A program made the translations under genes and the position numbers. A stretch of 64,000 bases of DNA, from contig MU004194.1 of the NCBI GenBank assembly GCA_010093605.1, positions 977,793-1,041,792 on the forward strand, read 5' to 3'. Source of the DNA: Lophium mytilinum (Eukaryota > Ascomycota > Dothideomycetes > Mytilinidiales > Mytilinidiaceae). The notes under the pieces were generated by a model. It searched no databases and was not told the DNA's origin. It saw only the letters and a list, made by a program, of their open reading frames with translations. Shown piece by piece: positions 15,674-62,435 of the stretch (position 1 is the first letter of the stretch; each line of letters starts with the position of its first letter).

Positions 15674-16307
15674 TGATGGGGAGGGCTGAGCATGTAGCAC
15701 ACGGAGGTAAGTGTGTATATCTGGTATATATATTCAAGTAATTACGACGAGCGCCTCTCTCAAAATGGATGGCAGAGATATAAGCTCCCTGTGGTCGCGG
15801 CTATAATACCCTGAAGTGAGAGAATTCCATTACAAAGTACGAATCAAGGACCGAAAGAGAACCGTGCATTTTCTTGTCTGTAACTTAACTCATCATAGCT
15901 ACGTATCCAACCTCTAATACATGAAGCAACTATTCAGCTACCTAAGCATATACTTGATTCACGCGCCCGCAAGTATTCTCGTCGAGGCCAAGTTGATATC
16001 GAAGTCCATTTGATATCAAAACTCGTACTTCGTGCCGAGACCGATCACGTGACAAATATTTCATCCATCGGACTTCGTGCCGACCCTTCTCCTTTAGGTC
16101 ATAATCCACTAAAAGTTCGCTATGGTGGTAAGATCTCAGAGTTCTAAATGGCAAGTGCTCCATTTATCGAGGATATATAAATTTCATGTCGTCCTCTTTT
16201 CCTTCTGCACCCAACCAATACTTCCAAACTCACATCACATCTGTACTTTGACTACACGGCGAAAAACGTGAGAATTTAAACCTGTTGCACCATAAAACAT
16301 AGCAATC
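15674..16307. other. Intergenic: promoter of the phosphonate fusion gene
   Basis: No gene is seen. A good TATA box lies at 16174. Confidence 0.5.
16174..16181 (+). promoter_or_regulatory. TATA box (TATATAAA)
   Basis: A perfect TATATAAA lies 127 bases before the ATG at 16308. TATA-type promoters in fungi often belong to inducible genes. Confidence 0.55.
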
Positions 16308-18261
16308 ATGTCAACCACAGTCCTACCTTCAGTTGCCCAATCCGCCCGATCCACTATCGAGTCCATATTCGGCTTCATCAGAGCCCAAGGCTCCTCAGAC
16401 TACCTCGGGGAAGCCGTCTCTCAACTTGAGCACTCTCTCCAAGCCGCAGATCTAGCTCAGAAGGCTGGAGCAGACGAAGAGACTGTGCTCGCCACCCTGC
16501 TCCATGATATTGGGAGGTTCATTCGCCATACCCCCGCAGCGGACGCACTGAAAGGTTTAGACGGTACGCGTATGAGGGCCGCCGAGCACGACGTCCTAGG
16601 CGAAGCCTACCTACGAAGTGTAGGATTCAGTGACAAGGTCGCGCAGCTGGTTGGAGCGCATGTCGTGGCTAAGAAGTATTTGACGGCGGTTGACGAGACG
16701 TATTTTGATAGGCTTTCTTCAGCGAGTAAGGAGAGTCTGATAGGCCAGGTAACACTCACCACCATTCAGGTGACTGTGTAGATGAATGACTGACTGAGCT
16801 TAGGGAGGCAAATTCACTCCGGAAGAGGCGAAAGCAGCGGAGAAAGACCCGCTGCTACAGCTGAAGCTTGCGGTTCGGAGATGGGACGACCAGGCCAAGG
16901 TTGCAGGTGCCAAAACACCGGATCTTGAAAGCTATAATGATCTTGCGGTCAAGTGTCTCATAGGTCTGTGGTCCCCGTGCGACGGTTTTCCTGTCCTCTG
17001 ACTTTGGACAGCTTCTCGAAGTAAAGTAACTTTACACTCACGTTCGTATCTCGTTCCGCGACGGCCGACTGTCGTCATCTGCGTTGATGGCTTCGATCCC
17101 TCATACCTGCAAAAGGGAATCGAAGATGGCATCATCCCAACCTTTTCTTCTTTCGCGCACAACGGTTTTCACGAAACCGCAAAAGTCGCAATGCCGTCCT
17201 TCACAAACCCGAATAATGTCTCCATCATCACCGGAGTGCCTCCAGCAATCCACGGCATAGCTGGCAACTACTTCCTTGACCGCGAGACGGGAAAGGAGAT
17301 CATGATCGTAGATGACAAACTGCTTCGCGGTTCCACCATCCTTGAACAGATGTCTAAAGTCGGTGTACGCATAGCGGCTGTTACCGCGAAGGACAAGCTA
17401 CGCAAGATCTTGACTCACGGCTTAACGCTTGATAAGAACGCTTCTGTCTGCTTCTCCGCTGAGAAGGCTGGGTCCTGCACGCTTGAAGAGAATGGAATCA
17501 GCGATGTGGAAGAGTTCGTGGGGCGACCACAGCCGCCGCAGTTTTCAGGGGAGTTGTCGCTCTTCGTACTCGATGCGGGCATCAGACTGCTTGAGCAAGA
17601 CCGAACAGATCTGTTCTATTTGACTTTATCTGACTTTATTCAACACACGCACGCGCCTAGAGAAGAGGAGTCCGATGAGTTCTACGCAGCGCTCGACGCT
17701 CGAGTCGCACGTCTGGTCGAGTTAGGAGCCAAGGTGGCAATCACCGGCGACCACGGAATGAGTGGAAAGTGCGGTGCGGATGGGAAACCCGATGTCGTTT
17801 TTCTCCAGGACGAAATCGAGGCCAGATTTGGACAGGGCTGCTGTCGCGTTATATGCCCTATCACCGACCCGTTCGTTCGACACCATGCTGGATTAGGCTC
17901 GCTGGTCCGCATCTACGTCGACAAGAACAGGACACAGGATGTAGACGCTATGATCCAGTTCTGCCGAAATTTCTCACAAGTCCAGATTGCGGTCAGTGGC
18001 GCAGAGGCAGCCGAGGAATACGAGATGCCGCTTGATCGAGAAGGCGATATTGTCGTTATTGCGTCACACCATGCGGTCATAGGAGCAACCCGTAAAGACC
18101 ACAATTTGGACGATATCAAGGACCACAAGCTGCGCTCTCATGGAGGCCTGTCAGAGGCTCATGTCCCGCTCATGATGTCCGAACCTATGCAGCATGATGC
18201 GAGTTCAGCTGGGCGGCAATGGAGGAACTTTGACATTTTCGACCTGGTATTGAATCACTAG
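16308..18261 (+). CDS. Fused HD-domain (PhnZ-like) oxygenase and phosphonoacetate hydrolase (PhnA-like)
   Basis: Exons 16308-16748, 16804-16963 and 17012-18261 give 616 residues. Residues 1 to about 200 form an HD-domain protein of the PhnZ/TmpB type, seen from H in LEHSLQ, HD in LLHDIG near 66, AEHDVLGEAYL, GAHVVAKKYL and the closing RRWDDQAK. In bacteria such diiron enzymes split C-P bonds of 1-hydroxyphosphonates. From about 205 on it matches phosphonoacetate hydrolase, an alkaline-phosphatase-superfamily zinc enzyme that makes acetate and phosphate. Visible are the metal-binding CVDGFDP, nucleophile Thr in FTNPNN near 262, DFIQH, TGDHG near 445 and SHGGLSEAHVP near 577. The last intron (GTCTGT...GACAG) joins both halves in phase. 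The second half has no Met before its first beta strand, which supports a true fusion. There is no signal peptide, so it is likely cytosolic. Confidence 0.87.
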
Positions 18262-20442
18262 CGGAGGCCTGACGTTTCGTTGCTGTTTTGAGGACTTGTT
18301 ATTGAGGTGGGAATCTGTTCCGTAGTGTCCCAGGTTCCGATGTCCATCACGGGGTCGAAATCCATGGTATATGGCCAGGACGCAGTAGAGGAAAAGTCGT
18401 TATGCGAAGATAACAGGTCGAAATTCTGCATATTGTCGATCCAGTTGAAGCCTCCGTCCAATGTTTCCGTATGCCCATGGTAGGCTTGTGACTCTTGTAG
18501 CATGCTAGCATGCGAGCCCGCGATTTGCGGGACGGTTGAGGGTCCCTCACATCTTTGCAAAAGCTTATCTACTCCTTCAGCAATAAATCGGAGTAAGTGT
18601 TGGCGATGCATCTTCGCCGCGGCCTTGCGGAGAACAGATGCCATGTCCTTTACAAGGGGCAGGATGTCTACACTACCAGTCCGTACGCTTCGCGAGAATT
18701 TTGTCGCCACTTTGAGGAGGAAGACGACGGCGAAAGCAATCATAGTGTCAAAGTAGAGAGGGAGACCATGAAGGTGAGATTGCACGCTCTTGTGATGAAT
18801 GATTGTGCGCAGGATAGACTTGGCAGAGACGACTGCAGCATTCGCTATCTCCTCCATGTCAGGGTGTAAGTCGTGCGAGTCCGAAGTTACGCCCCGGAAT
18901 GCAAGTGAGCAGAGGAAAACCTTGGCGAAGTGGAAATGTAGTCCTACTCCTATTTGTGAGTAGTCTCCAATAAGGGCATGGGTTTTTAGGCTCTCGCTCC
19001 AGTCTGCGCGCCAGGTGTCTAGCGAAATCATCAGTCTGTGTATCTTTGGAAGATGATCTAGAGAGATTGGTTTCTCTACGTCGACCCCAAAAGTTTCGAA
19101 GACGGAGCTGGATATACGCCAGATGTTGATTTGGCTGACTAGTCTAGCATCATCCTCGCATGCGTGCTTCGTGGCTAGAAACCGAGACGCAGATCTGATC
19201 GAATCGCATTCTCTTGACATCGATGGGCGGCCATATGCCACACTAAAGTGGTGATCGCAAACGTACACTAAGTAGTATAGTCTCGTCTCGTAATAGCTTC
19301 GCAGGTCGTCTTTGAGAGCTGTATTGATGCTGCGGTGAAGCTGAAGTTGAGTAGCAAGTCGAACAGCTACGGTAACATGTTAGTAAAGTCCCATATTTCC
19401 ATTCCGTTCCGAATTTACTTACCACTTGCTACAAGACTCCAAGAGATTTCGCTGAGCCAGAACGCACCAATACATAAACCTCTGATGTCGTCCAATCTGT
19501 TCTCATTCAGAAACATCTGAGCGGCACAGCGATCCATAAAGCCTTTGTAGCAGCGCTCATACAAGTGTCCTAATTCGGCAGAGTGCAAAGCGCCAACCGT
19601 ACAAATTCCCGCCAGGAGAAGAGAAGAATCAAACCTGATGGCATCGAGGTCCTTGTGCTCCCCCAAAATCTGATATAAAAAGTGGTCTAGGCGATTTGAG
19701 TACAGCTCTAAGAGGGTTTGGGCTTGGTCGTAGGTCAACACGCCCTGGTCAATCAGATCTGGTCCGACTCGTGTCCTTCCAGGAGGCCTCGCATATGAAG
19801 TGTGTTCTTCAACGCAAGCAGCGGGGATTGTAGCAGGTCCGCTCTCTTCGTCCATTACTACTTCCCAAGACTGATCGCTTGGGGCGCGAACTGGTGGTGG
19901 CATGGTGACAGACGATGGCCGCACGCCACGTCGTTTGTCTGTCCGAGGCTCTTGAGAGAGAGGAATGCTAGAAGCTTCTGTATTGGGAGGTGTGTGAGAC
20001 TTGTGCAGTCTTCGCTCCCCTCGAAGCTCAGCTAAAGAGCCTTCTAGCCTCTGAATCTTACGTGTGATGGAAGTTTTCCAGCTTTGATATATTAGCCCAT
20101 GCGGTGCGACATGTTTGGCTAGAGGTTTACAACGTACTCTGCGTCTTCTTCCAGGAGCATTTGAAGACTGCGATTGACTGTGCAAGATAGGCCTCGCTTC
20201 TTACACCGTAAACACGGGGCTCGTCCATCCCGCATGTTACATTTAATCTACCACTCCATCAGCGAGTGTGAGTGACGAGGATGCCTTTGGTCTTGAACCT
20301 TTTGCTTACGACAGGCGACGCAGGCAGTGATTTTTCTGCTGATATCCGGGACTTTCCTGTCCCCAAATAGCTCTCGGAGTCCACCCCCATCTACCGGCAG
20401 AGAGATAATCTCCATTGGTTCGTCATCATCAGAACCTGCCAT
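18258..20442 (-). CDS. Zn2Cys6 transcription factor with fungal-specific middle homology domain (PrtT-like)
   Basis: Exons 20442-20299, 20247-20138, 20081-19423 and 19366-18258 give 673 residues. The binuclear zinc cluster is whole: C41, C44, C51, C60, C63 and C70, split after Lys48 by intron 1. A short coiled coil (TRKIQRLEGSLAELRGE, about 90-107) follows and should allow dimer formation. The long middle domain has the RLYYLVYVCDHHFSVAYGRP block typical of fungal trans domains. The overall order resembles activators of extracellular proteases of the PrtT group; that link is by memory of the family and is tentative. The tail is Ser/Asp/Trp rich and may activate transcription. Its stop overlaps the stop of the convergent phosphonate gene. 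An inverted-repeat element ends its promoter 152 bases upstream of the ATG. Confidence 0.87.
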
Positions 20443-20593
20443 GACCTGATCCAGTCTCAAGTGTCGGCAGAGCGCCGAATGCGGTGTGACTTTCCTCCAG
20501 ATCTCCCTGACTGTATTTCAAAGAATCAGGGGACTGCCGATGCGTAGTCGTGAGAGATGTGGGAAGAGAACACGACGTTCATCCAACGAGATG
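20443..20593 (-). promoter_or_regulatory. Short retained promoter of the Zn2Cys6 gene
   Basis: Only about 150 bases of unique sequence separate the ATG at 20442 from the inverted-repeat element. Any farther control sequence has been displaced by the insertion. Confidence 0.4.
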
Positions 20594-21686: not shown

Positions 21687-24600
21687 TCACTCTTGGTGTA
21701 GATTAGCCTTGGGACTTGAATGCTCGGCGCCCTCAGGCAACCTCAACGCATCTCCCTCGGCTCTCATCGTGTCGATCGAATCAATTGCCTCATCGGCTTC
21801 TACGCTGCTTTCCCCCACTGCTTTCGCCTGCCTGATCTGTGCTTCGTCATGCGCATCATCGCTGCTCTCATCCCCAACCTCCACCTCATCGTCATCCGAG
21901 TCATCTTCATCTGCAGATAGCTTCGGCCCCGCCTCTGGCCTCCTCTTGCGTTCAAAATCTTGAGCATGTGCATTGTGCAGTATCGTCCCTACTCTCGAGA
22001 ATCCGAGAGGTCCCGGTGATGGTCGGCCCGCACTCGAGGAATAAGTGCCGCGGCGGCGGCGATGGCCTGTGTTGGAGCGAGTTCGGGAAGCTTCGAGATC
22101 AACACCGCTAGTACGAGCTGCGGTGGCAACACGGCTGAGGGCAGACACAGAGGGAGATGGGCCCCCGTCTTGTTGGCCGGCCGTCGACGGATGATGTGAT
22201 GTGGGGCGGGTGGATATATCTGGGGAGCTTGTGACAGAAGGAAGCTCGTAGGGTAGAGGAATGTCTCTGGATGCTCGGAAGCGGCCGACGCTTTAAGGGT
22301 TATCAGTACGATTCTTGACAATATGTAGTTTTTAGGGGAGTAGAGAAGGGGCATACTTGGTGCAATGTTCGTTTTCGACGCGAAACACGCTCCACATGCC
22401 TCTTCGGAATACTTCAGAGAAGGCAACTACGAAGGACAGGACAGCAGAGTGCTGGAGCTCGATGGGATAAATGGCGTAGAATATCCAATTAAATCGAAGG
22501 ATAGGATCGAGGACCATTGCGACGTAATACATCCAAACCTTTTTATACCCTAGGGTGTCGCGGAGGAACCTGTTTTTGGCATATGGATTGCCGAGACCTG
22601 GGACATTAGTACTAGTATTGGAAGGCCGTGACTTCGTTGACTTACTCCAATCCATGATTACATCCCATATACCTAAGTGTGTCAGAGGCTTGGTCCCTAG
22701 TATATAGGGCGGGGAACTCACTGCAATAGATCGCATTGATTGTAGCAAAGACGATGAAAGCGGCACGATGGTGCGGCGTTTTGCCAATACGATAGATGCT
22801 CAAAGTCACGTAAAATAGGATGGTAGCGATATACTTCCCGCAATTCACCAGATGCGGAAATATATTCCTGGTATCGTAATAACGTCGGATGCATTGCAGC
22901 GCTCGCCAAACACCAGGTAGGGCGGCAAAGAACCCTAGAAGGCGAGAGTGCGTCGAGTTGCACTGACCGGGATTGTTCCATCCATTGGCGTAAAGGCAGA
23001 AGAAGAGTTCGATATTCTGTAATTCGCGTCAGAACCTGAAGAGATGCAATTGGGCTGGATACACATACTCCCATGCTGTATGTAAGGGAACAGAACATGT
23101 CTCCAAGGAAGAAGTCTCTGAACTCTACTGGATACAATCCAGCAAGAGCGAGTCGCCACTGTCTAACTTTAGTGAGCGTTATAGAAACGGGGATATATAC
23201 TAACCAGGGAGTAAAGGAACCATTTACGAGTTCGGTGGTAGAGCATCCGGGCAGGGAAAAACAATATTATCGCGGTGATGCCGATCAGAATGACTGGATA
23301 GTATATATACAGGGAATCACTTCCAAATTGGCTAAAGTTGAGCCACAGGAATATTCCAAGAAGAAACAAGAATGCGCAGGGAAGCTATGATCTGATGAGT
23401 ATTGGAGGAGGGTGGATTGATGTTATACTCACTTCAGCCAGTTGCCTCCAGTCAAGGTGGTGGCGGGTATCAAACTCGAAGACGAAAGCAAAATTAATTT
23501 TGCTAGTCTGCCAAATTCTGCAGACCAGGCAAAACAGTAGCATCAAGAACACCATGAGAAAGTATCCCGCGTAAATCTGCTGTACGTTAGCTTGCTGTAA
23601 TAATAGCATGTTCGAGGAATCGTTACCTGAAGGAGGTAGCTAGTGTCGAGTGCTAAAGTTCGATCGGATGATTGAAGTAGTTCCAGTCCGTAAACAAGAC
23701 CTTCTATCCCGAAGACCAGCCCTGCAGCTACCATAATACCGTTACGGAATGAGTTATCCGTAAAGTCACCGGCTCGGGCAGTCTTGATTCGCAGTTTTCC
23801 AACAGCCACTTTATGGTTGCCTTGTTCAAAGTAACGGGCATACAGATCTTCAACGGCATGTATGTAGCCATCCAATACTTCGCTTTGAACGAACCAAGCC
23901 TTGTTGACTTTTTCCGTCATGTAGCGCCCAGATGGCCTGGCATTCACAGCCTTGTCATATTTCTTTGTGATCTTGCGGAATGCTGTTCGGTTGAGTAGAG
24001 AATAGGATTTGAGCAATTCTAGTCCTCGGTAATACTCTTGGAGTGCAGTCTTGAGTTTCCTCTTGGCACTCCTGTATGGAACTTCGGATAGAACGGGTCG
24101 ACGAGAGTAGTCCCGGCGGTCATCTACAGGTTCCTTGGGTTGCAGTGCCGAGGGCGTTCCCAGCTCCTTCATTGCTTTGGTTCCCTTTCCAAACCGACCC
24201 GACTTCGCTGCTTCCAGGGCGGAGTCGAGGGGTTTCATCCAAGAAGCGTTCATGATTCCGCTCTTGTGATCTGAGTCTGAGCTTGACCCCGGGGCGTTAA
24301 ACAATAAGCTCTGGCCCTCCGAAAGCGTTTTCTTTTTGTTCAATTTCGCAGTCTGATGTGCAACTATCTCGTCCAAGCGACGATCTCGCATAATGTGTAA
24401 TTGCTCTCGTAAAACAGCTAAGCGATCAGTAGCTTCGTCCTCTTTTTCTTTATAGAAAGTCTCGATTTTTTCTAATTGAAGATCCAAGAAGTTGAAGAAC
24501 TCGGCTTGGCGAAAATCGAGTTCACGGTAAGATTCGAGCGGCAAATCTGGCACCCCTGTAGGTACTGATGTCCTTTTGGCGGACAACGAGAACATCCTCT

Positions 24601-25428
24601 TGACTAATGGGCGTGCCCCTTCTGTTCCTGGCATAGAATTTACCCGCTTCGGGGTGAATATACTCTTATATCTCTGAGGTAACGTAGACGCTTGACGATG
24701 TGGAGATTTCGTCTTGCCGACTTCAAAGGCATTGGACGCACTCGGTGGTAGCTGAAAAGGTGGCGCCTTCGCGCTTTTGGTGGGGACTCCGTAGGGCTGT
24801 TTGAGACTCGCATGGTCAGGATCTAGCGCGGGATCTGGCAGCTCCAAATCTGGCGGCTTCTGGTCTTTGCTGTGGTGTCTTTTATGGTCCATTCCCTGCG
24901 CCGTAGGACTCCCAATTATACTCCCATATCTTGTCATGTGTGGAAACCCCGGTTCGTCGTCCTCTCTCAATGGCTGCTCTTCCGGATCGCGCAAATTATA
25001 TCGAGCCTGCAGCGGGCTTTTCCCATTCCCCTTGGACTTCAGGCTAGAACTGCCATTGCGTATAGAGGCGCTCCTGCGATCCAGCGCACCTTCATGCCCA
25101 CCATGTTCACGCCCCGAACGTGAGCGATTCAAGAAGGAGTATGTCGGCGCGGTCGCAGAAGGGTCGGGGATGAGGGTGTTGCCTCTCTGACGGTTACGTG
25201 GGGTTTGGCTGACTGCTTTCACGGCTCGCGAGACATCTTTTAGCTTCTTCTTGCCCAACTGTAGAAACAAGACGTCAGCATCTGAGACCAGGGAATGAGG
25301 GCGGAAGTCGAACCTTGTAGTCGAGGTATTTGATCCTCCATTCTGGAACACAGTCCCGCTCAAGCTCCCTAGAAACAATTAGGGCTGCCTTGATCCCCTG
25401 GAGGAATTGCGTACTTTGCGAATTTCAT
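21687..25428 (-). CDS. SYG1: SPX-EXS protein, SYG1/XPR1-type phosphate exporter or sensor
   Basis: Ten exons (25428-25415, 25368-25314, 25258-23627, 23576-23433, 23384-23205, 23158-23069, 23016-22722, 22672-22646, 22597-22357, 22290-21687) give 1093 residues. The SPX domain begins with MKFAKELE and DYK at 1-23. It is interrupted by a long Ser/Pro-rich insert and resumes with the Lys-rich helix near 420 (inositol-pyrophosphate pocket region in this family). Membrane helices start near 520. The EXS domain carries FEFDTRHHLDWRQLAE, GLYPVEFRDFFLGDM, CNSTHSRLLGF, RYYDTRNIFPHLVN and DPILRFNW. The last 200 residues are an acidic, Ser-rich cytosolic tail. XPR1 relatives export phosphate; in fungi SYG1 is linked to G-protein signalling and phosphate balance. 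A 27-base exon and a CAGCAG acceptor are described separately. Confidence 0.93.
22646..22672 (-). other. 27-base micro-exon of SYG1
   Basis: The exon codes for the middle of SIWDVIMDWS, a conserved EXS block. It has a TTAG acceptor before GTATATGG and a GTAAGT donor. Both neighbours join in phase 1. Confidence 0.8.
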
Positions 25429-60973: not shown

Positions 60974-61885
60974 CTACTCTTCCTTCGAGAAGAACCCAAC
61001 ATCCCCACTCACCTTTCCCAACTCCACTAGCCTCTCCAGCATCCCCTCCGCTCTCACCTTAACCTCTTCCTCCAACGCCCCAAAATCACACCTACCCACC
61101 CACTCCCCAACTCCATGCTGCAGCACATTCCTCGCCCTCCCCTTCCCACCCCTCACACACCCCACACTCCCATGCAACGTCATCCTCTCCCTTCCCTTAT
61201 CATACGCCCCACGATGCAAAATATTATTATCATAAAATACCACATCGCCAGCACCCAACTTCACCTTTATCTCCCCCTCTAACCCCCTCTCATATGGCCC
61301 CGCCGCCCTCTCCTCTTCCGTCCTCGCCCGCCTCTGACTCCCCGGCACCACGATCAAACTCTCATCCTCGTACAGCGGCAGATTCCACTGCGCATGCCAT
61401 GCCGGCCGCCCCAACCTCTCCATCTCCTCTTCCGGCCCCGCGTCCGCCGGCACGTCATCCCGGTGCCACCGCAGCTCGAAGTCTTCGTCAGGCCGGACTA
61501 AGAGATTGTAGAGTTCCATGACCAGCTCGTCCTCAGTGCAGCCCCCGCCGATCAGCTCAGCCACGACGGCGAGCAGCGGCGCGGAGAAGTAGCTTGAGGC
61601 GAAGAGGAGGTGGTCGGGGAGGTCTGGGTGCAAAAGGTGTTGCACGCCCCAGATCCCCGCCGAGGGGTCGGCGGGCCAAGGAGGAAACTGCTTGGGGAGC
61701 GTGCGGATGTAAGGCCAGGCGCCGGAGCGGGCGAGGGCGGTGGTGCGGGCGGCGGCGGCGCGGAGGGCTTCTAGAGTTTCTGGGGGGATGAAGGAGGGGA
61801 GGATGACGAAGCCGTCATGTTCGAGGGTGGCTCGGAGGTGGGATTTGGGGAGAGAGGCGGTTGTTCTGGGTATTTCGGTGGCCAT
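60974..61885 (-). CDS. Phytanoyl-CoA dioxygenase family protein
   Basis: A single exon of 303 residues. Fe(II)/2-oxoglutarate oxygenases of this type hydroxylate small molecules. The iron-binding HxD is in LRWHRDDVP near 139-141 and the distal His in NNILHRGAY near 223. MELYNLLVRPDEDFE before the HxD and the Arg in GRERMTLHGS after the distal His fit 2-oxoglutarate binding. There is no signal peptide. The substrate is unknown; relatives occur both in general metabolism and in secondary-metabolite clusters, and no such cluster is visible here. Confidence 0.88.
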   Translation of the reverse strand: MATEIPRTTASLPKSHLRATLEHDGFVILPSFIPPETLEALRAAAARTTALARSGAWPYIRTLPKQFPPWPADPSAGIWGVQHLLHPDLPDHLLFASSYFSAPLLAVVAELIGGGCTEDELVMELYNLLVRPDEDFELRWHRDDVPADAGPEEEMERLGRPAWHAQWNLPLYEDESLIVVPGSQRRARTEEERAAGPYERGLEGEIKVKLGAGDVVFYDNNILHRGAYDKGRERMTLHGSVGCVRGGKGRARNVLQHGVGEWVGRCDFGALEEEVKVRAEGMLERLVELGKVSGDVGFFSKEE

Positions 61886-62435
61886 TTTGGCAGAGGGAGG
61901 GAAGCTACATTGGAGGGGGTTTGGGGGGGTTATTAGTTGGGTCTACTTAGAGGTGGTATGGCTATGTTGTATCGTGATGTTGAGTTGGAGTTGAGATGGT
62001 TCGGGCGAATGAGGGCCGATTCGATAATGTCGATGCTACTCACGTGACATATCATCTCAGTACCCAGTTGAAGTATTAGGAGGAATATTACGTGCCAATG
62101 GATGAAGTGGTTAGGAGAACAGAAGAAACAACTCTGTAGTGACACACTTAGGTAGTTCATAAATTGATATAGTTTGTGAATGTTTCGATACCAATATATT
62201 GTTCATTGGGTGACGCCTCTTGACGCACGAAAGGGTTTGATAGATACAAGTAATCGCGACGGATCTCGCTTCAGAAGAACGTAATGATCCCATCTCTATT
62301 CGATAATGGGGTTGTAACAGAATGAAAAGCGTCGAGAACTCCGTCCCAACGGCCGTTGATGTTTGCAATGATCAATTGCATATGGTATCCGTGCGAAGCC
62401 TCTTGGGCTAGACACACACTGAACATGATTCTCCT
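61886..62435. other. Intergenic: PhyH promoter and 3' flank of the next gene
   Basis: No coding sequence is recognised. It is AT-rich near 62130-62330. Confidence 0.45.

Follow-up and report, generated by a model that had tools for sequence, protein, structure and literature searches.

The closest characterised case to the locus described here is PhoF of the fungus Fonsecaea multimorphosa, which is a fusion of PhnY and PhnZ (PMC10574752). Like PhoF, as it is described in that review, the gene that we analysed in Lophium mytilinum is predicted to encode a fungal single polypeptide, in which a PhnZ-like HD oxygenase is joined to another phosphonate enzyme. The partner enzyme is a different one, however: in PhoF, by the same description, it is the hydroxylase PhnY, which makes the substrate of the HD domain and hence sets up a true sequence of steps, whereas here it is PhnA, an unrelated hydrolase that cleaves the C–P bond. 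Indeed, a PhyH domain was not found in the fusion, for which Pfam gave only Phosphodiest, HD, and HD_4 at E values up to 0.01. The initial annotation of this DNA knew of no characterised example of such a protein; PhoF now serves as a near precedent, and a description of the HD–PhnA fusion itself was not found in open-licence PubMed Central papers among the top matches listed. Also, HD–PhnA proteins may already stand in fungal protein databases under a plain name.

The two enzyme types joined in this gene have both been described. In enzymes of the PhnZ/TmpB type, the metal motif H...HD...H...H...D and the role of the YxxE loop have been described, Glu27 of PhnZ contacts the amine of the substrate, and cleavage by PhnZ yields glycine and phosphate, according to the sections of the report dealing with these enzymes (PMC8177086). 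In PhnA, a Thr residue acts as the nucleophile and two Lys residues serve the carboxylate, and the cleavage yields acetate and phosphate, as summarised in the review cited above for PhoF (PMC10574752). Genes for both types can stand side by side in bacteria; namely, Table 1 of Zangelmi and co-workers records phnZ homologues in 24 of 75 phnWAY clusters (PMC8154272), but as separate genes. Among fungi, furthermore, Penicillium is described as having a monomeric phosphonoacetate hydrolase of 43 kDa that is independent of divalent cations (PMC4133637). The fusion chain, in contrast, has a mass of 67.3 kDa and, judged against the published lines on the Penicillium enzyme, is not obviously the same protein.

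The genome of L. mytilinum comprises 43.2 Mb in 24 contigs, and the gene lies on contig C14 in a stretch of 64,000 nucleotides, hereafter called the window. The short introns, a transcription factor domain of fungal type, and further gene content agree with a filamentous fungus. The features discussed below are collected in Table 1.

Table 1. Positions of the features of the fusion gene and its surroundings (window coordinates, except where another contig is named)
Feature	Position	Strand	Content
Upstream direct repeat, copy 1	16023..16038	+	TCGTACTTCGTGCCGA; candidate regulator site
Upstream direct repeat, copy 2	16068..16083	+	TCGGACTTCGTGCCGA; candidate regulator site
Exon 1	16308..16748	+	residues 1-147, with the larger part of the Phn-HD (PhnZ/TmpB-like) oxygenase domain
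Intron 1	16749..16803	+	55 nt, GTAACA...TTAG
Exon 2	16804..16963	+	remainder of the HD domain, including R172 and D175, the last metal ligand
Intron 2	16964..17011	+	48 nt, GTCTGT...ACAG, at the domain junction
Exon 3	17012..18261	+	predicted phosphonoacetate hydrolase domain (residues 207-616) and stop
TIGR03276 Phn-HD match	16350..16956	+	residues 15-198, split by intron 1; converted from residues
TIGR02335 PhnA match	17029..18258	+	residues 207-616; converted from residues
Neighbouring gene, tail to tail	18258..20517	-	extent estimated from three open frames; product likely a fungal transcription factor
Second phosphonate locus (L001)	contig C13, 1413172-1416729		PhnY*-like PhyH hydroxylase and PhnZ-like HD pair

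Families and catalytic residues of the two halves

In searches with NCBIfam profiles, the C-terminal half matched the PhnA family TIGR02335 with 555.7 bits, which is well placed above the curated cut-off of 407.55, and the best solved relatives by sequence are two bacterial PhnA proteins of known structure (PDB 1ei6 and 3szy), to which it is 45 and 42% identical, respectively. The ten positions that we took as catalytic, with the metal ligands among them assigned partly on what we assume to be the known PhnA pattern, are all occupied as in these bacterial proteins: D226, T265, N269, K327, K329, D408, H412, D447, H448, and H577. Indeed, they were identical in 120 of 120 aligned rows, the fungal row included, where the set, made up of the fungal sequence, 1ei6, and sequences taken from the collected loci, was picked by similarity, which favours conservation. 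With its score over the family cut-off and its residues intact, the C-terminal half is a predicted PhnA phosphonoacetate hydrolase.

The N-terminal half matched the Phn-HD family TIGR03276 with 176.5 bits (E 3.5e-52); this score is under the cut-off of 214.6, and the half is best described as PhnZ-like and not as a formal member of TIGR03276. The scores for the TmpB equivalog (NF049941, 119 bits) and the hydroxymethylphosphonate dioxygenase (NF052439, 133.9 bits) were both far under the cut-off of 300 bits as well. By sequence, the best solved relatives are PhnZ (PDB 4n71) and TmpB (PDB 6npa), and the HD half has the same ligands as these enzymes, while being only about 37–38% identical to them and joined to PhnA. 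Namely, the diiron motif is complete (H42, H66, D67, H94, H118, and D175) and the YxxE substrate loop is intact (Y32 and E35); R70, K122, and S140 are the other HD residues of interest encoded by exon 1.

We compared these positions among 61 HD rows, which were again picked by similarity favouring conservation. The equivalents of Y24, H34, H58, D59, H80, H104, K108, R158, and D161 of PhnZ were identical in all 61 rows, the fusion included; the Ser126 equivalent was kept in 60 of the 61, and the E27 equivalent in 59 of the 61, the fusion being among them in both cases. At the position of PhnZ His62, in contrast to PhnZ and TmpB, the fusion has Arg70; His is found there in 59 of the 61 rows, and Gln in an HD domain encoded on contig C13 of the same genome. 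Both fungal HD domains, that in the fusion and that on C13, depart from the near-constant His at this position, the conservation of which is a column count made here and, as far as we have seen, not a published criterion for membership. With Arg70 in place of His62, therefore, the substrate of the HD half may differ or its activity may be lost. In a tree of the 61 rows, the HD domain of the fusion fell, on a long branch, in a group of six rows together with the C13 HD domain, PhnZ, and the rows L168, L169, and L195 (98/91), and none of three placements, which were named after the tree was seen, was rejected by AU tests (p of 0.504, 0.212, and 0.415).

We consider it unlikely, in spite of these features, that the HD half is no longer of the PhnZ type, having changed its substrate or having become a structural or regulatory domain, which would make the protein in effect a phosphonoacetate hydrolase. 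Such a change would be consistent with the Arg residue, found at the His62 position in no other of the 61 rows, with the long branch in the tree, and with the score under the Phn-HD cut-off; relaxed constraint, however, would be expected to break some of the six diiron ligands, the YxxE loop, and the equivalents of Lys108 and Arg158, and all of these are kept.

Gene structure and bacterial counterparts

When the three exons are spliced, the window gives one in-frame ORF of 1851 nt, encoding 616 residues and a stop. The HD match ends at residue 198 and the PhnA match begins at residues 206–207, which leaves some seven or eight residues unmatched in between; intron 2 lies in codon 201 of this gap. 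Removal of intron 1 re-forms a QGG motif (Q147–G149), which is common to PhnZ and the second HD domain of the genome on C13. One branch-like motif, CTGAC, is present per intron, starting 14 nt before the intron end, and the donors GTAACA and GTCTGT look usable, if not optimal, against what we take to be the usual fungal pattern.

Retention of intron 2 would bring an in-frame TGA at 16999–17001 into the message and would leave an HD-only product of 212 residues. It is accordingly conceivable, but distinctly doubtful, that the locus gives two products, namely, the fusion upon splicing of intron 2 and the 212-residue HD-only enzyme upon its retention. The stop inside an intron that sits at the junction would fit such a dual output, and so would the donor GTCTGT, which does not look optimal by the pattern that we presume; retention of short introns, on the other hand, is often mere noise.

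Before the PhnA nucleophile, in-frame Met residues occur at 1, 89, and 261, with none between 89 and 261. Met261, the first one in the PhnA part, is four residues before the nucleophile Thr265 and already past the metal ligand Asp226, and translation of an intact hydrolase hence could not start within exon 3. An intact in-frame hydrolase therefore needs translation from or before the HD part, unless an unseen exon gives a start. The initial annotation had proposed an HD–PhnA fusion with both of these introns, catalytic residues in both halves, and no start codon of the second half's own; all of this agrees with the spliced frame, the two family matches, and the residues listed above. The case for one gene encoding a fused protein, as read from the DNA, is strong but indirect.

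It would be very improbable that two separate adjacent genes have been wrongly joined here. The stop within intron 2 and the failure to see a fused ORF among the bacterial loci examined might be cited for two genes, but the PhnA domain runs intact from exon 3 without any start codon, barring an unseen exon, and the PhnA match reaches nearly to the acceptor just as the HD match reaches nearly to the donor. As for the bacterial loci, no ORF with both domains was found among 133 PhnA and 69 HD ORFs (some loci overlap, and the ORFs are not all distinct genes), and thus none of the 133 PhnA ORFs, unlike the fungal fusion, shares its frame with an HD domain. Also, none of 48 PhnA rows (E < 1e-80) from 952 genomes spans both halves, in a search that scores the best candidates per genome only and whose negative result is hence not exhaustive. 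The 289 genomes from the class of a Bradyrhizobium contributed 33 of these rows, the 294 from the phylum of a planctomycete contributed 10, and the 369 from the class of a Variovorax contributed 5; for five of the 48 strong rows (G045, G271, G173, G169, and G005), an HD match was located less than 6 kb away in the same strand of the contig.

A tblastn search of plasmids with the fusion as the query gave 143 matching records, nine of which covered at least 80% of the query. In the three of the nine that were inspected (from Ensifer, Ruegeria, and Leisingera), the apparent fusion was an artefact: going backwards from phnA, the aligned region crosses a stop codon and enters the preceding gene, which is phnW or similar to it and carries the annotation phnW in two of these records. 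The remaining six, five from Ensifer adhaerens (H2–H6) and one from Ruegeria (H9), have the same coverage and identity.

In the initial annotation, the two activities were assigned to separate routes in bacteria. The genes are separate, but separate routes are too strong a statement in view of the phnWAY clusters with a phnZ homologue mentioned above and of the bacterial loci that we collected: among the best 80 of at least 574 confirmed PhnA loci, a Phn-HD gene was found within the flanks (up to 8 kb) in 11, being downstream of phnA in nine, opposite to the N-terminal position of the HD domain in the fusion, and some 6.6–7.2 kb upstream in two. Family searches in some of the loci placed phnW before phnA in both of the two tested (L060 and L061) and phnY between phnA and the HD gene in all of the four tested (L060, L061, L071, and L082).

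Origin of the PhnA half and genomic setting

In a tree of the 120 PhnA rows, the fungal row fell in a clade of 24 rows, the remainder of which are bacterial, with 98% SH-aLRT, and this clade is apart from an 80-row clade containing 1ei6; the tree is from a quick search with SH-aLRT as the only support, and the fungal row is a long branch. The two groups of loci differ in their neighbours. Among the loci L006–L085, a PhnW-like ORF was present in none of 20 loci of the fungal-type clade versus 40 of the 60 others, and a PhnY-dehydrogenase-like ORF in two of 20 versus 51 of 60 (E 1e-60, with flank lengths varying among loci).

Some neighbours recurred within 5 kb of phnA among the 23 bacterial members of the fungal-type clade. 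A group of LysR-type regulators was found at 15 loci, and Pfam assigned each of the three members tested to LysR. At 11 loci (L011, L015, L017, L020–L023, L027, L059, L097, and L110), there was a second gene of the alkaline phosphatase superfamily, PF01663, to which each of three tested members was assigned, and at four loci there was a phosphonate-binding ABC protein, for which both members tested were PF12974. An ORF for an MFS transporter adjoins phnA in L007, where its best model scored 171 bits, below the cut-off of that model. The two largest groups from the clustering of neighbours were set aside, as their members overlap PhnA itself out of frame. Because of the LysR, PF01663, and phosphonate-binding ABC neighbours, along with the MFS transporter in L007 and the lack of PhnW in all 20 loci, the evidence points to a fungal-type PhnA lineage that would act in taking up and using phosphonoacetate, and not in the aminoethylphosphonate route.

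The fungal genome itself also differs from the PhnWAY route: neither PhnW (best 52.7 bits, cut-off 400.8) nor PhnY dehydrogenase (232.9 bits, cut-off 635.65) had a match above its cut-off, and PhnX did not either (40.3 bits, cut-off 220), in a profile search performed exon by exon, which lowers the scores of split genes. A second PhnA was not found in the genome, in which one weak match of 40.3 bits lies on C5. On contig C13, however, a PhyH gene is followed, 237 nt downstream of its stop, by the second HD frame, which has its own ATG. Two open frames of the PhyH gene matched a methylphosphonate hydroxylase model with 80.1 and 39.6 bits, which is far under the cut-off of 500. In sequence, the pair looks like the two parts of PhoF, apparently unfused, barring a hidden intron. 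Another dioxygenase of the PhyH family, at 60977–61942 (-) of the window and about 43 kb from the fusion, had no NCBIfam match at E values up to 0.01 and was left out of our reading.

Upstream of the fusion is a 16-nt direct repeat with its two copies 45 nt apart. The pattern TCGNACTTCGTGCCGA occurs twice in the 43 Mb genome, both times at this place, and its reversed control does not occur; the 12-nt core of the repeat is absent, with up to two mismatches allowed, from L001, which covers 3,558 bases with the pair on C13. These results suggest that a regulator specific to this gene, possibly the factor encoded next to it (18258–20517), may act at the repeat, or that the repeat is simply a local duplication. 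In the neighbouring gene, Fungal_trans scored 21.6 bits on 18261–19379, just below its cut-off of 23, and the other two frames had no match; its product is a possible candidate regulator of the fusion.

A phosphate-starvation box, CACGTG, is found at 16046, at a distance of 262 nt from the start codon on its upstream side; with 14 copies in the window versus 14.3 expected by chance, however, it is no evidence of regulation. ORFs with EXS and SPX domains lie at 22721–25378 (-), about 4.5–7 kb downstream of the fusion, and would presumably encode a SYG1/XPR1-like phosphate protein; their proximity may be due to chance. At the left end of the window, furthermore, an open frame of 952 residues (2–2857, +) with a Ser/Thr-rich start reaches the edge and has no Pfam match.

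Proposed function

The product of the locus is probably a single bifunctional enzyme of phosphonate degradation, and its two sites would work independently and in parallel in scavenging phosphate from two phosphonates. The N-terminal half would be a mixed-valent diiron oxygenase of the PhnZ/TmpB type, cleaving an alpha-hydroxylated phosphonate, most likely (R)-1-hydroxy-2-aminoethylphosphonate, into a carboxylate and phosphate, and the C-terminal half would be a zinc phosphonoacetate hydrolase releasing acetate and phosphate. Assuming that both halves are active and the gene is spliced as drawn, a single gene would give the fungus access to the phosphate, and to some of the carbon, of two phosphonates. 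The hydroxylated substrate of the HD site might come from outside or might be made by the PhnY*-like hydroxylase of contig C13. Phosphonoacetate for the PhnA site would probably be supplied from outside, because PhnW, PhnX, and PhnY dehydrogenase have no match above the cut-offs in the genome. One protein handling two phosphonates, as had been envisaged in the initial annotation, is thus plausible.

A bolder version, which we regard as improbable, is that the fused HD half, with its Arg70, has turned to oxygenating an acidic alpha-hydroxyphosphonate akin to phosphonoacetate and no longer an amino compound; one protein would then take plain carboxyphosphonates by hydrolysis and hydroxylated ones with oxygen, under a dedicated switch represented by the promoter repeat unique in the genome. 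The other idea raised at the outset, that the product of one site is passed on as the substrate of the other, is suggested by the fusion itself and is extremely unlikely, because both sites release phosphate and neither carbon product, glycine for PhnZ and acetate for PhnA, keeps a C–P bond.

Phosphonate breakdown in eukaryotes is poorly known. The HD–PhnA protein would be the second kind of fungal fusion built on a PhnZ-type HD domain, and it could be assayed by ordinary enzymology in a laboratory host. One gene with two unrelated C–P cleaving sites would offer a direct test of how fungi obtain phosphate from phosphonates.
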